Of a stretch of DNA of 64,000 nt, positions 5,467-21,415 are shown in pieces. The notes under the pieces were generated by a model, which was given only the letters and a program-made list of their open reading frames with translations, did not search any database and was not told the origin of the DNA. The position numbers and the translations under genes are program-made. The DNA is from Odoribacter sp. (GTDB lineage Bacteria; Bacteroidota; Bacteroidia; Bacteroidales; Muribaculaceae): contig JAMPHZ010000003.1 in the NCBI GenBank assembly GCA_023663145.1, positions 1 through 64,000 on the forward strand. The letters are read 5' to 3'. Position 1 is the first letter of the stretch, and the number at the start of each line of letters is the position of its first letter.

Positions 5467-5489
5467 TGTATTTAAAAATCAGTTTAAAT

Positions 5490-5589
5490 CCGGATGCTAT
5501 GGAATGTCAGGTGGGCGGGTGAATGCGCCGACGGCATTACTGCCTGTGTCAAGGTGTTGACAGTAGCCGGTGACACCCTGCTTATCCGG
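5490..5589 (-). promoter_or_regulatory. Candidate structured RNA leader upstream of rpsD (S4)
   Basis: A closing helix pairs CCGGAT (5490-5495) with ATCCGG (5584-5589) and encloses two stem-loops: AATGC/GCATT (5522-5526, 5534-5538) and TGTCAA/TTGACA with a GGTG loop (5547-5552, 5557-5562). A second pairing, GTGTCA (5546-5551) with TGACAC (5571-5576), excludes the latter stem, so two states are possible. The closing helix ends 23 bases before the rpsD start codon. A hand fold only. Confidence 0.5.
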
Positions 5590-5631
5590 GGATTAAAAAA
5601 TTTGATAACACTAAAAGAGAAAGTAGAGGGA

Positions 5632-5658
5632 CATTTGGCGCCATGAGGCGCTCAAATG
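5632..5658 (-). promoter_or_regulatory. Intercistronic hairpin just after rpsK
   Basis: CATTTG-GCGCC (5632-5642), loop ATGA, then GGCGC, a bulged T, and CAAATG (5647-5658) form an 11-bp stem starting 14 bases after the rpsK stop. No T run follows on the minus strand, so it looks more like a processing or stabilising hairpin, or part of the rpsD leader, than a full terminator. Confidence 0.5.
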
Positions 5659-5671
5659 GCGTAACTGATTA

Positions 5672-6061
5672 TTAAACTCTTCTACGCTTGGGGGGGCGGC
5701 AGCCATTATGGGGCAGCGGGGTAACGTCTATAATCTCGACTACCTCAATTCCTGCGCCATGGATGGTGCGGATTGCTGATTCACGGCCGTTGCCGGGTCC
5801 TTTAACGTATGCCTTCACTTTGCGCAGGCCCAGATCATAGGCAATCTTGGCGCAATCCTGAGCTGCCATCTGGGCAGCATAAGGAGTGTTCTTCTTTGAG
5901 CCGCGGAAGCCCATCTTGCCGGCCGATGACCATGAAATAACCTGGCCTTCGCTATTGGCGAGACACACGATGATATTGTTGAAAGACGAATGAACGTGAA
6001 GCTGACCTTCTGCGCCAACCTTAACGTTTCTCTTCTTTGCTGCAACTGTCTTTTTTGCCAT
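5672..6061 (-). CDS. rpsK: 30S ribosomal protein S11
   Basis: 129-aa small-subunit platform protein S11. It shows the family core HVHSSFNNIIVCLANSEGQV, the stretch GFRGSKKNTPYAAQMAAQDC and the C-terminal signature VTPLPHNGCRPPKRRRV. It lies 9 bases after rpsM and before the long structured spacer that precedes rpsD. Confidence 0.98.
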   Translation of the reverse strand: MAKKTVAAKKRNVKVGAEGQLHVHSSFNNIIVCLANSEGQVISWSSAGKMGFRGSKKNTPYAAQMAAQDCAKIAYDLGLRKVKAYVKGPGNGRESAIRTIHGAGIEVVEIIDVTPLPHNGCRPPKRRRV

Positions 6062-6070
6062 AGTAGATTA

Positions 6071-18537: not shown

Positions 18538-18556
18538 ATTGTGATTCTTTTATTGT

Positions 18557-20683
18557 TTACTTAAGCAGGTCTACTCGGCCCTGGCACTCGGTCAGGACAT
18601 TGCGGGCGATTGATGTAGATACTTCGCTGTAGTGCGAGAACGACATTGTTGAGGTTGCACGGCCTGAGGTGATTGTACGCAGGGCTGTAACATATCCGAA
18701 CATTTCGGCAAGAGGAGCCTTGGCCTTTACAACACGGGCGCCAGAGCGGCTTGTCTCCATACCTTCTACCTGTCCGCGACGTTTGTTAAGGTCACTGATC
18801 ACGTCACCCATTGATTCTTCAGGAGTAACGACCTCGATCTTCATGATAGGCTCAAGAAGCACAGGGCCGGCCTGTTCGCAGGCTTTCTTGAATGCCTGGA
18901 TGGCACACAACTCGAATGACAGCTGATCAGAGTCAACGGGGTGGAATGAACCATCAATCACGGTAACCTTAAGTTGTTCCACCGGGAAGCCCGCGAGGAC
19001 ACCATTCTTCATCGCTGTCTGGAAGCCCTTCTGTATCGAGGGGATGTATTCCTTAGGAATGTTACCACCTTTGACCTCGTCTACAAACTGCAGATTACCG
19101 TCAAAGCCCTCGTCAACAGGTTCAACGCGGACAATTATGTCAGCAAACTTACCACGACCACCGGTCTGTTTCTTGAACACTTCACGGAGCTGAACAGGCT
19201 TTGTAATCGATTCCTTGTAAGTAACCTGAGGACGGCCCTGGTTACATTCTACCTTAAACTCGCGACGCAGACGGTCGATAATGATATCGAGGTGAAGCTC
19301 ACCCATACCTGAGATAACTGTCTGGCCGGTTTCTTCGTTAGTTGCAACGCGGAATGTAGGATCTTCTTCAGCAAGCTTCTGAAGGCCAACACCAAGTTTG
19401 TCAAGATCTTTCTGTGTCTTGGGTTCCACAGCTATACCGATAACAGGATCGGGGAAGTCCATAGCCTCAAGCACGATAGGAGCGTCTTCTGCACACAGTG
19501 TGTCACCGGTACGGATATCTTTGAAACCTACACCGGCACCGATATCACCACAGCCGATACGTTCCTTGGGGTTCTGCTTGGAAGAGTGCATCTGGAACAG
19601 ACGCGAGATACGCTCTTTCTTTCCTGAACGTGAGTTAAGAACATAAGAACCGGCATCGATATCGCCGGAATAAACACGGAAGAAGCACAGACGACCTACA
19701 TAAGGATCGGTTGCGATCTTAAAGGCGAGAGCACACATAGGAGCGTCGCTTGAAGGTTCGCGTGTTTCAACTGTGTCAGGATCACCCATTGCGTGACCTT
19801 CAACCGCACCGGCATCGGTGGGAGAAGGCAGATAAGCACATACTGCATCAAGCAGGCATTGAACACCCTTATTCTTGAACGAAGAACCCAGAATCATGGG
19901 AACGAGGTTCATTGACAGAGTAGCCTTACGCAGGGCGCGCTTGATTTCCTCAACAGTGATTGTAGAAGGATCGTCAAAGTATTTTGACATGAGATCATCG
20001 TCAAACTCGGCGATTTTCTCAAGCATCTTGTCACGCCATTCCTCAGCTTCATCCTGAAGGTTGGCGGGTATTTCTTCTATAGAATAGTCAGCACCCATTG
20101 CCTCATCATGCCAGAAGATAGCCTTCATGGCAATGAGGTCAACCACACCCTTGAATGTCTCTTCAGCACCGATAGGTATCTGAATAGGGCAGGGATTGGC
20201 ACCGAGTACGTCCTTGAGTTGGCGCACCACCTCAAAGAAGTTGGCACCCGAACGGTCCATTTTATTAACGTAACCGATGCGGGGAACGTTATATTTGTCA
20301 GCCTGACGCCATACGGTCTCTGACTGGGGCTCAACGCCACCTACTGCGCAGAATGTAGCGACTGCACCGTCGAGCACACGCAATGAACGTTCAACCTCTA
20401 CAGTGAAGTCAACGTGCCCCGGGGTGTCAATAAGGTTGATTTTGTATTTTTCGTCGTTATACTTCCAAAACGCTGTAGTGGCTGCCGAGGTAATGGTAAT
20501 ACCGCGTTCCTGCTCCTGTTCCATCCAGTCCATGGTGGCAGCGCCATCATGCACCTCACCGATTTTGTGTGTGAGGCCGGTATAGAAAAGAATACGTTCC
20601 GAGGTTGTTGTCTTACCGGCATCGATGTGAGCCATGATACCGATATTACGGGTATATTTAAGTAGTTCGTCTGATTTAGCCAT
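18557..20683 (-). CDS. fusA: Elongation factor G
   Basis: 708-aa translocation GTPase. The G domain shows the P-loop IMAHIDAGKTTTSERILFYT, the switch stretch DWMEQEQERGITITSAATTA, DTPGHVDFTVEVERSLRVLD and YVNKMDRSGANFFEV. The C-terminal domains IV-V include GGRGKFADIIVRVEP and HYSEVSTSIARNVL. Length and position after rpsG (21 bases) mark it as the canonical EF-G rather than a second EF-G-like paralogue. Its antibiotic target status (fusidic acid) is family knowledge. Confidence 0.98.
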   Translation of the reverse strand: MAKSDELLKYTRNIGIMAHIDAGKTTTSERILFYTGLTHKIGEVHDGAATMDWMEQEQERGITITSAATTAFWKYNDEKYKINLIDTPGHVDFTVEVERSLRVLDGAVATFCAVGGVEPQSETVWRQADKYNVPRIGYVNKMDRSGANFFEVVRQLKDVLGANPCPIQIPIGAEETFKGVVDLIAMKAIFWHDEAMGADYSIEEIPANLQDEAEEWRDKMLEKIAEFDDDLMSKYFDDPSTITVEEIKRALRKATLSMNLVPMILGSSFKNKGVQCLLDAVCAYLPSPTDAGAVEGHAMGDPDTVETREPSSDAPMCALAFKIATDPYVGRLCFFRVYSGDIDAGSYVLNSRSGKKERISRLFQMHSSKQNPKERIGCGDIGAGVGFKDIRTGDTLCAEDAPIVLEAMDFPDPVIGIAVEPKTQKDLDKLGVGLQKLAEEDPTFRVATNEETGQTVISGMGELHLDIIIDRLRREFKVECNQGRPQVTYKESITKPVQLREVFKKQTGGRGKFADIIVRVEPVDEGFDGNLQFVDEVKGGNIPKEYIPSIQKGFQTAMKNGVLAGFPVEQLKVTVIDGSFHPVDSDQLSFELCAIQAFKKACEQAGPVLLEPIMKIEVVTPEESMGDVISDLNKRRGQVEGMETSRSGARVVKAKAPLAEMFGYVTALRTITSGRATSTMSFSHYSEVSTSIARNVLTECQGRVDLLK

Positions 20684-20704
20684 TTTCTCTTATATCTTGA
20701 AAAA

Positions 20705-21181
20705 TTAGAAGCGGAAATGAGCGAATGCACGGTTAGCCTCAGCCATCTTGTGCATATCCTCCTTACGCTTGAATGCACCGCCCTGGCTATTGAAAGCATC
20801 AACGATCTCAGCAGCGAGTTTATCGGCCATCGTTTTGCCACCACGTTTGCGGGCGTATATAATAAGATTTTTCATCGATATAGACTCCTTGCGGTCAGGA
20901 CGGATTTCAGTAGGCACCTGGAAAGTCGCACCACCAACGCGGCGTGACTTAACCTCTACCTGAGGAGTTACATTCTCGAGGGCCTTTTTCCAAATCTCGA
21001 GAGCGGTCTGTTCTTCATTGGGGAGCTTTGATTTCACAATCTCAAGCGCTCCGTAAAAAATGGTGAATGCGGTATTCTTCTTGCCATCGTACATCAAGTG
21101 GTTAACAAACTTGGTTACGCGCACATCACCGAATACGGGATCGGGAAGGATCACACGTTTTTTAGGTTTTGCCTTTCTCAT
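20705..21181 (-). CDS. rpsG: 30S ribosomal protein S7
   Basis: 158-aa S7, the primary assembly protein of the 30S head. It begins MRKAKPKKRVILPDPVFGDV and contains KFVNHLMYDGKKNTAFTIFY, TPQVEVKSRRVGGATFQVPT and the helix RKRGGKTMADKLAAEIVDAF. The ATG at 21181 gives the exact family length. The frame continues open upstream for about 45 very basic codons, but without an ATG. A 234-base structured spacer separates it from rpsL, the place where S7 represses its operon in Escherichia coli. Confidence 0.97.
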   Translation of the reverse strand: MRKAKPKKRVILPDPVFGDVRVTKFVNHLMYDGKKNTAFTIFYGALEIVKSKLPNEEQTALEIWKKALENVTPQVEVKSRRVGGATFQVPTEIRPDRKESISMKNLIIYARKRGGKTMADKLAAEIVDAFNSQGGAFKRKEDMHKMAEANRAFAHFRF

Positions 21182-21250
21182 TGCAGGTTTTTTACCTTTG
21201 TGTTTTTGATTGCTTGGTTGCTTGCGTCTGTTCTTCAGCCTAATTTTAAT

Positions 21251-21301
21251 CCGGAGGACAATTCCTCGTTCCTTTATCAAGACCTCCGTCTTGAAGTCCG
21301 G
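21251..21301 (-). promoter_or_regulatory. Candidate structured RNA leader upstream of rpsG (S7)
   Basis: Closing helix CCGGA (21251-21255) with TCCGG (21297-21301) encloses a strong 7-bp hairpin TCAAGAC/GTCTTGA (21277-21283, 21288-21294) with a CTCC loop. An alternative helix, CGGAGG (21252-21257) with CCTCCG (21283-21288), uses the loop and excludes the first fold, so two states are possible. The element lies 70-120 bases upstream of the rpsG start in the 234-base rpsL-rpsG spacer. The rest of the spacer is AU-rich. A hand fold only. Confidence 0.5.
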
Positions 21302-21415
21302 GGCTTACTCAACCTTCGTGTCAGCTTTTCAAGAATTCAAAAACGAGTTTAAATAATAATTGATTTAATCTCGCGGTGCTTTTAGTTTTTTCTTCACCTA
21401 TATATATTATATAGA

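Follow-up and report, generated by a model that had tools for sequence, protein, structure and literature searches.

Layout of the ribosomal superoperon

The window analysed here is a stretch of 64,000 nucleotides from Odoribacter sp. (GenBank assembly GCA_023663145.1, contig JAMPHZ010000003.1, positions 1 to 64,000), which carries on its minus strand a ribosomal superoperon running from rpsL to rplQ, with 33 genes and 32 junctions. An earlier note, made from the sequence of this stretch, had pointed to three outsized spacers directly in front of the genes for the ribosomal proteins S7 (rpsG), S8 (rpsH) and S4 (rpsD), and these spacers, together with the putative RNA leaders that they hold, are the subject of this report. 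The measurements bear the note out: the rpsL-rpsG gap is the longest of all junctions (234 bases) and is followed by rpsN-rpsH (207 bases) and rpsK-rpsD (205 bases), vs. 86 bases for the fourth longest (rpsJ-rplC), and the remaining 28 of the 32 junctions are at most 50 bases long or overlapping (coordinates of the main features are given in Table 1).

The same three junctions stand out among relatives. The comparison set comprised 140 loci, i.e., 60 stretches from genomes of the same family (L061-L120) and 80 named loci (L121-L200) whose titles include Muribaculaceae, Porphyromonadaceae, Bacteroides, Prevotellaceae, Tannerella and Paludibacteraceae; six pairs among the 140 represent the same stretch, and a junction was counted at a locus only where both flanking genes were found. 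Over these loci and the window, gaps of at least 100 bases were present at rpsL-rpsG in 88/88 cases, at rpsK-rpsD in 107/122 and at rpsN-rpsH in 74/137; next came rpsJ-rplC (25/105) and rpmJ-rpsM (18/128), and every other junction had seven such cases or fewer. Because the same three junctions are systematically long across 140 related loci, the long S7, S8 and S4 gaps are real and general, and not the accident of one genome.

The putative S7 leader

The spacer in front of rpsG holds a core with the consensus GGYYGAGUA-[covarying hairpin]-UGAAG...CARCC, which was found in all 86 distinct rpsL-rpsG spacers (82 by one pattern, and four variants by eye). In an alignment made without regard to structure (A2, 61 of the 86 spacers), none of the 61 rows departs from GGUUGAGUAA (ten bases) or UGAAG (five bases), and the whole named structure shows 141 double-changed cells vs. 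53.4 in shuffled controls and at most 48 in slid ones (here and below, counts rather than probabilities). A core alignment (A4, 75 of the 86) was used for the model, termed R2, and an alignment fitted to R2 (A5, which includes two weak off-target rows) gave 233 double-changed cells vs. 79.4 shuffled and at most 54 slid. The outer helix that encloses the core is paired in 84.7% of the cells of A2, with hardly any covariation. R2 matched all 84 sources given to it, each time within the rpsL-rpsG spacer (E up to 0.045), with two further weak matches (E 0.45 and 0.78), and at an E of 0.001 or better the window genome has a single match.

A 5' module of the same spacer (21375-21415 in the window), made up of a variable stem followed by GGUGAAG...GCACC, occurs in 22 of the 86 distinct spacers and repeats the UGAAG of the core.

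The putative S8 leader

The element in front of rpsH is a compact hairpin of 36 nt, UUAAA-UA-UUG-U-NNNN-loop-NNNN-A-U-YAA-UUUAA, with a bulge of two bases on its 5' side and of one base on its 3' side. Its alignment (A1) holds 97 of the 104 distinct matches to a sequence pattern, the left-out matches being elements longer than 50 bases and that of L111; the pattern itself had been without a match in 10 of 130 rpsN-rpsH spacers. Across the 97 sequences, 99.6% of the cells are paired, and five pairs (four apical and one basal) have changed on both sides, with one apical pair being CG in 45 sequences, GC in 45, AU in six, UA in one and broken in none. Double-changed cells amount to 103, vs. a mean of 31.8 in shuffled alignments and at most 16 in slid ones.

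The corresponding model, R1, matched 60 of 61 sources in the first set (the window and L061-L120) and 74 of 80 in the second (L121-L200), with one match per source. These matches lie inside the rpsN-rpsH spacer in 132 of the 137 sources with a defined spacer (the window and 136 loci); two extra matches come from contigs without rpsN, and no R1 match fell elsewhere. Among the sources with a defined spacer, R1 was unmatched in L123, L150, L173, L175 and L182, the last three of which show a diverged hairpin by eye. As with R2, the window genome has a single match at E 0.001 or better.

Two side observations concern this spacer. Its upstream part (11613-11770 in the window) has a second possible element, with CGGGAGACG...GUCGCUCCC pairing, seen only in the window, L061, L062, L068 and L076. 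In addition, the near-invariant core upstream of rpsH is replaced in one family member (genome G061, locus L224) by a rewired hairpin (AAAUACUGACGGG...CCCGUCGAGUUU), a natural variant that could serve for probing what S8 needs.

The putative S4 leader

A leader at the third site, S4-Bacteroidia (RF03139), has already been published (Eckert and Weinberg 2020, PMC7247131). Searches of Rfam 15 with the window operon (E up to 1), three relatives (E up to 0.5) and the window's rpsK-rpsD spacer by itself (E up to 10) returned a single family, RF03139, which was hit in two of these relatives; no family matched the S7 or S8 leader in the window or the three relatives. RF03139 had no match in the window's rpsK-rpsD spacer (5440-5700, E up to 10) nor anywhere in the window genome; that is, the Rfam check proposed in the earlier note led to a known S4 leader, the window form of which goes unrecognised. 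A loose RF03139-like motif pattern was found in 86 of 116 distinct rpsK-rpsD spacers, with a median length of 198.5 bases vs. 105 in the 30 spacers without it, and the 3' tail of S4-Bacteroidia is present as CGCGGCUG in 84/116 and as CGCGGCUGC in 73/116.

The window and three loci of the same genus (L061, L062 and L076) have in this place an 8-bp closing helix (AAUCAGUU/AACUGAUU), a tract of the form CUCUACUUUC[AU]CUUUUAGU and an apical loop CACCUUGACA. Members of the genus that carry the RF03139-like motif (e.g., L079 and L083) show the closing helix as well, and we read the window structure, as judged from these sequence features, as a probable divergent form of the S4-Bacteroidia leader with a rebuilt hairpin. 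Of the foldable leader that had been proposed in front of each of the three genes, S7 and S8 are represented by conserved structures with strong covariation, and S4 by a divergent, local form only.

We also noticed that the tail CGCGGCUGC (e.g., L114 3062-3098) shows complementarity to GCAGCCGCG, which lies around position 519-536, the 530 loop, in four 16S rRNAs. Chance matches of eight or nine bases to a 16S are not rare, and this complementarity was set aside as evidence.

Table 1. Positions of the three spacers, their leader elements and the first genes downstream in the window
Feature	Position	Strand	Remarks
rpsL-rpsG spacer holding the S7 leader	21182..21415	-	Gap of 234 bases; at least 100 bases in 88/88 loci
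S7 outer helix, 5' arm GUUUUUG	21338..21344	-	Pairs with CAAAAAC 21208-21202 in the predicted fold
S7 leader core	21214..21316	-	R2 match of 41.6 bits; alignments A2, A4 and A5
S7 core parts	GGUUG 21314-21310; AGUAA 21309-21305; long apical hairpin; UGAAG 21237-21233; CAACC 21220-21216	-	
S7 outer helix, 3' arm CAAAAAC	21202..21208	-	Ends 20 nt before the rpsG start
rpsG (S7), first gene past the S7 leader	20705..21181	-	
rpsN-rpsH spacer	11564..11770	-	Gap of 207 bases
S8 leader hairpin	11575..11612	-	R1 match of 50.7 bits; covariation in A1; ends 11 nt before the rpsH start
rpsH (S8), first gene past the S8 leader	11165..11563	-	
rpsK-rpsD spacer, putative divergent S4 leader	5467..5671	-	Gap of 205 bases; fold z-score -3.31 for 5467-5616
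S4 closing helix, 5' arm AAUCAGUU	5663..5670	-	Pairs with 5484-5477 in 4/4 genomes of the window's subclade
Conserved tract CUCUACUUUCUCUUUUAGU of the S4 leader	5610..5628	-	From the four-genome alignment; similar tract in other members of the genus
CACCUUGACA, hairpin apex of the S4 leader	5547..5556	-	Identical in four genomes, with stems that differ in sequence
S4 closing helix, 3' arm AACUGAUU	5477..5484	-	Ends 10 nt before the rpsD start
rpsD (S4), first gene past the S4 leader	4861..5466	-	

Distribution of the leaders among genomes

Among 149 genomes of the order, the S7 leader (R2) was detected in 28, the S8 leader (R1) in 23 and the S4 leader (RF03139, over the cut-off) in 18, with one match in each genome. 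The term 'Bacteroidales-specific', under which the earlier note had grouped the three leaders, is therefore too broad, since they mark a part of the order. R2 was found in 130 of 149 genomes of the family (again one match each) and in seven of 198 genomes of the class, the latter number including G396, a likely false hit on a locus of 1824 bases without rpsL or rpsG. The positions are consistent throughout: all 20 fetched order loci with an R2 match have it between rpsL and rpsG, and all 23 R1 matches in the order share the strand of rpsH, with their ends 8-12 nt ahead of its start. The S8 count of 23 is a lower bound, because a similar or diverged hairpin can be made out by eye in four R1-negative genomes (G061, G244, G292 and G357); in 24 other R1-negative genomes of the order (L247, L250-L252 and L284-L303), no S8-type hairpin was seen in the upstream DNA that was read. 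The three leaders form a nested set within one part of the order, with 18/18 of the RF03139 genomes and 22/23 of the S8 genomes falling among the 28 S7 genomes. This joint distribution follows kinship and is no proof of a shared function.

It could be argued that the long spacers are neutral insertions that were retained by chance. Such a reading agrees with the bulk of the rpsN-rpsH spacer, which upstream of the hairpin varies freely in sequence and length (gaps of 45 to 2610 bases), and with the hairpin being kept inside a 52-base gap in some relatives (e.g., L162). We disfavour it, and regard it as extremely improbable, because of the covariation of the S7 and S8 leaders; the specificity of the matches speaks against it as well, as do the rpsH gaps of 18-38 bases in 16 of 20 R1-negative order loci (L284-L303; those of L290 and L301 are longer, and the lengths for L287 and L294 were not resolved). 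Free variation of the spacers and unconserved helices had both been named beforehand as signs that would count against leaders. The former describes a large share of each spacer, in length and in sequence, but not the core near the downstream gene, which is conserved; as for the latter, the helices of the S7 and S8 leaders are conserved and covary.

Proposed regulation and alternative explanations

Each of the long spacers, we believe, holds an RNA structure that likely acts as an autogenous leader for S7, S8 or S4 (with a probability of roughly 0.8). Under this model, when S7, S8 or S4 is in excess of what 16S rRNA takes up, the free protein would bind and stabilise its own leader, which would prevent ribosomes from loading at the start codon that follows (in the window, the folds end 10-20 nt from the AUG; Table 1). 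Repression would act at translation, rather than by a transcription stop, and translational coupling would carry it to genes further downstream, the superoperon being divided into three units under separate feedback, which would begin at rpsG, at rpsH and at rpsD (rpsD-rpoA-rplQ). The ligands, the translational repression and the three-unit division are inferences, and the basis for proposing feedback differs between the leaders: rRNA-like sequence for S7, mainly position for S8, and position and kinship for S4.

S7 as a ligand is supported because its leader carries the rRNA-like signature AGUAA-helix-UGAA (with a helix of at least three pairs), found a single time in each of four 16S rRNAs of the family. 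The place, between positions 1343 and 1382, corresponds to helix 43, which belongs to the uS7 site. Among 2000 dinucleotide shuffles of one of these 16S rRNAs, 52 contain the signature. The E. coli K-12 rpsL-rpsG spacer also reads AGUAAGG...CCUGAA, and the best R2 match in E. coli falls there and is weak (6.1 bits, E 0.24).

Several observations weigh against the autogenous model and should be considered together. The 16S signature also arises in shuffled sequence, at the frequency given above, and the likeness of the E. coli spacer was noticed without an estimate of its chance level. Because the complete R2 model finds no match to helix 43 in four 16S loci, the rRNA mimicry of the S7 leader is local; R1 was likewise without a match in four 16S loci when helix 21 was tested for mimicry by the S8 hairpin. 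Of the 16S-like mimicry that the earlier note had suggested checking, the local S7 signature was thus recovered and the whole-model matches were not. The window-type S4 leader comes from four genomes and has no RF03139 match, and the S4 part of the case is the weaker one because four sequences yield little covariation. The shuffled controls keep shared ancestry, so the covariation counts given above are not to be read as probabilities. Further, the leader system is dispensable in relatives, because 121 of the 149 order genomes are without an S7 match. Finally, some promoter-like sites count on this side too: sites of the Bacteroidetes type were found in 11 of 86 rpsG spacers vs. 5.25 in shuffles, and three weak sigma-70-like matches (9 of 12) on the minus strand overlap the window's S8 and S4 spacers.

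The last two findings would also fit the possibility that the spacers are mainly internal promoters, with folds that are incidental or serve RNA processing. However, no Bacteroidetes-type site was found in the three spacers of the window, the frequencies in the rpsH (3/129 vs. 4.95) and rpsD spacers (3/112 vs. 4.7) are below those in shuffles, and compensatory changes need a cause at the RNA level. Hence, the promoter reading is disfavoured, and we consider it very improbable.

Alternatively, the leaders may be real with a different sensor, such as another ribosomal protein of the downstream unit (e.g., L6, S5 or L15 for rpsH) or an unrelated RNA-binding protein, an explanation against which the helix-43 signature of the S7 leader speaks. 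Consistent with a different sensor, no rRNA likeness was found in the window S4 leader, and the S8 hairpin, in line with the negative R1 search of 16S loci, matches the helix-21 core only in part. It does have a G-C pair beside a bulged U, and the counterpart of A642 is not at the same place, whereas the core of uS8 sites is described as two base triples plus A642 (PMC4176348). Yet each leader directly precedes the gene of a protein known to repress the corresponding operon in E. coli (for S7 and S8, PMC10931766; for S4, PMC7247131), and we regard a different sensor as unlikely.

If the autogenous model is taken together with the distribution of the leaders, a broader picture may be drawn, in which part of the Bacteroidales would have replaced the E. 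coli feedback layout. The control by S8 would have moved from rplE to rpsH via the 36-nt hairpin, with an S8 recognition unlike helix 21; the S7 leader would have kept AGUAA/UGAA, shared with 16S and E. coli, in a new fold; and the three switches would be co-inherited, with the S4 switch rebuilt in a subclade of the window's genus. We offer this picture tentatively, at slightly less than even odds.

Two further observations were made on the locus. With regard to transcription terminators, these were rejected for the window's three spacers because no terminator-like hairpin was found within them on the minus strand; the best such hairpin of the scanned stretch lies upstream of rpsL (23072-23116, minus strand, strong, 20 pairs). 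In the rpsJ-rplC gap (18146-18231 in the window), the start context of rplC is unusually fixed, being AGAAAUG in 77 of 100 distinct spacers, and no common hairpin was seen on reading these 100 spacers.

Relation to known systems

The S7 and S8 leaders represent compact, testable candidates beside the published S4 leader. Table 1 of PMC7247131 lists no S7 or S8 leader, and PMC10931766 calls the control by uS7 and uS8 outside E. coli-like bacteria open, save for a likely cyanobacterial uS7 case. In another study, 50 genomes are reported to yield 30 candidate leaders of ribosomal genes (PMC11109978); Bacteroid-, rpsH and rpsG do not appear in its main text, and its supplements could hold an S7 or S8 leader. 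Our literature search, which covered freely accessible papers without their supplements, identified no paper describing these two leaders. If the model is correct, the S7 leader would be an instance of one rRNA-like recognition signature within different folds in distant bacteria, the S8 hairpin would test what degree of departure from helix 21 an S8 site tolerates, and the three leaders would show how one packed superoperon is split into separately controlled parts.

The closest counterparts include the operators of E. coli, where the earlier note placed the S8 and S4 sites elsewhere. Only these two sites are relocated, since the S7 site between rpsL and rpsG is as in E. coli (PMC10931766). 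In the E. coli spc operon, the uS8 operator is, like the S8 leader, a hairpin with an asymmetric internal loop among spc genes and a G-C pair beside a bulged U (PMC10931766, PMC4176348), but it lies at the start of rplE and not before rpsH, and, unlike in the E. coli spc layout, L14, L24, L5 and S14 would here fall outside the S8 unit. The S4-Bacteroidia leader of relatives shares with the window form its site before rpsD-rpoA-rplQ, a hairpin, and S4 as the likely ligand (PMC7247131), whereas the window form has no CGCGGCUG tail and carries the CACCUUGACA loop and the 8-bp closing helix in its place. In the E. coli str operon, the uS7 operator resembles the S7 leader in its rpsL-rpsG site, in AGUAA...UGAA around a helix and in its resemblance to the 16S site (PMC10931766), and differs from it in fold and spacer. 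By description, the rpsL-rpsG spacer of the cyanobacterium Anacystis nidulans may be set beside the S7 leader as well, given its reported similarity to the S7-binding region of 16S rRNA (as cited in PMC10931766).

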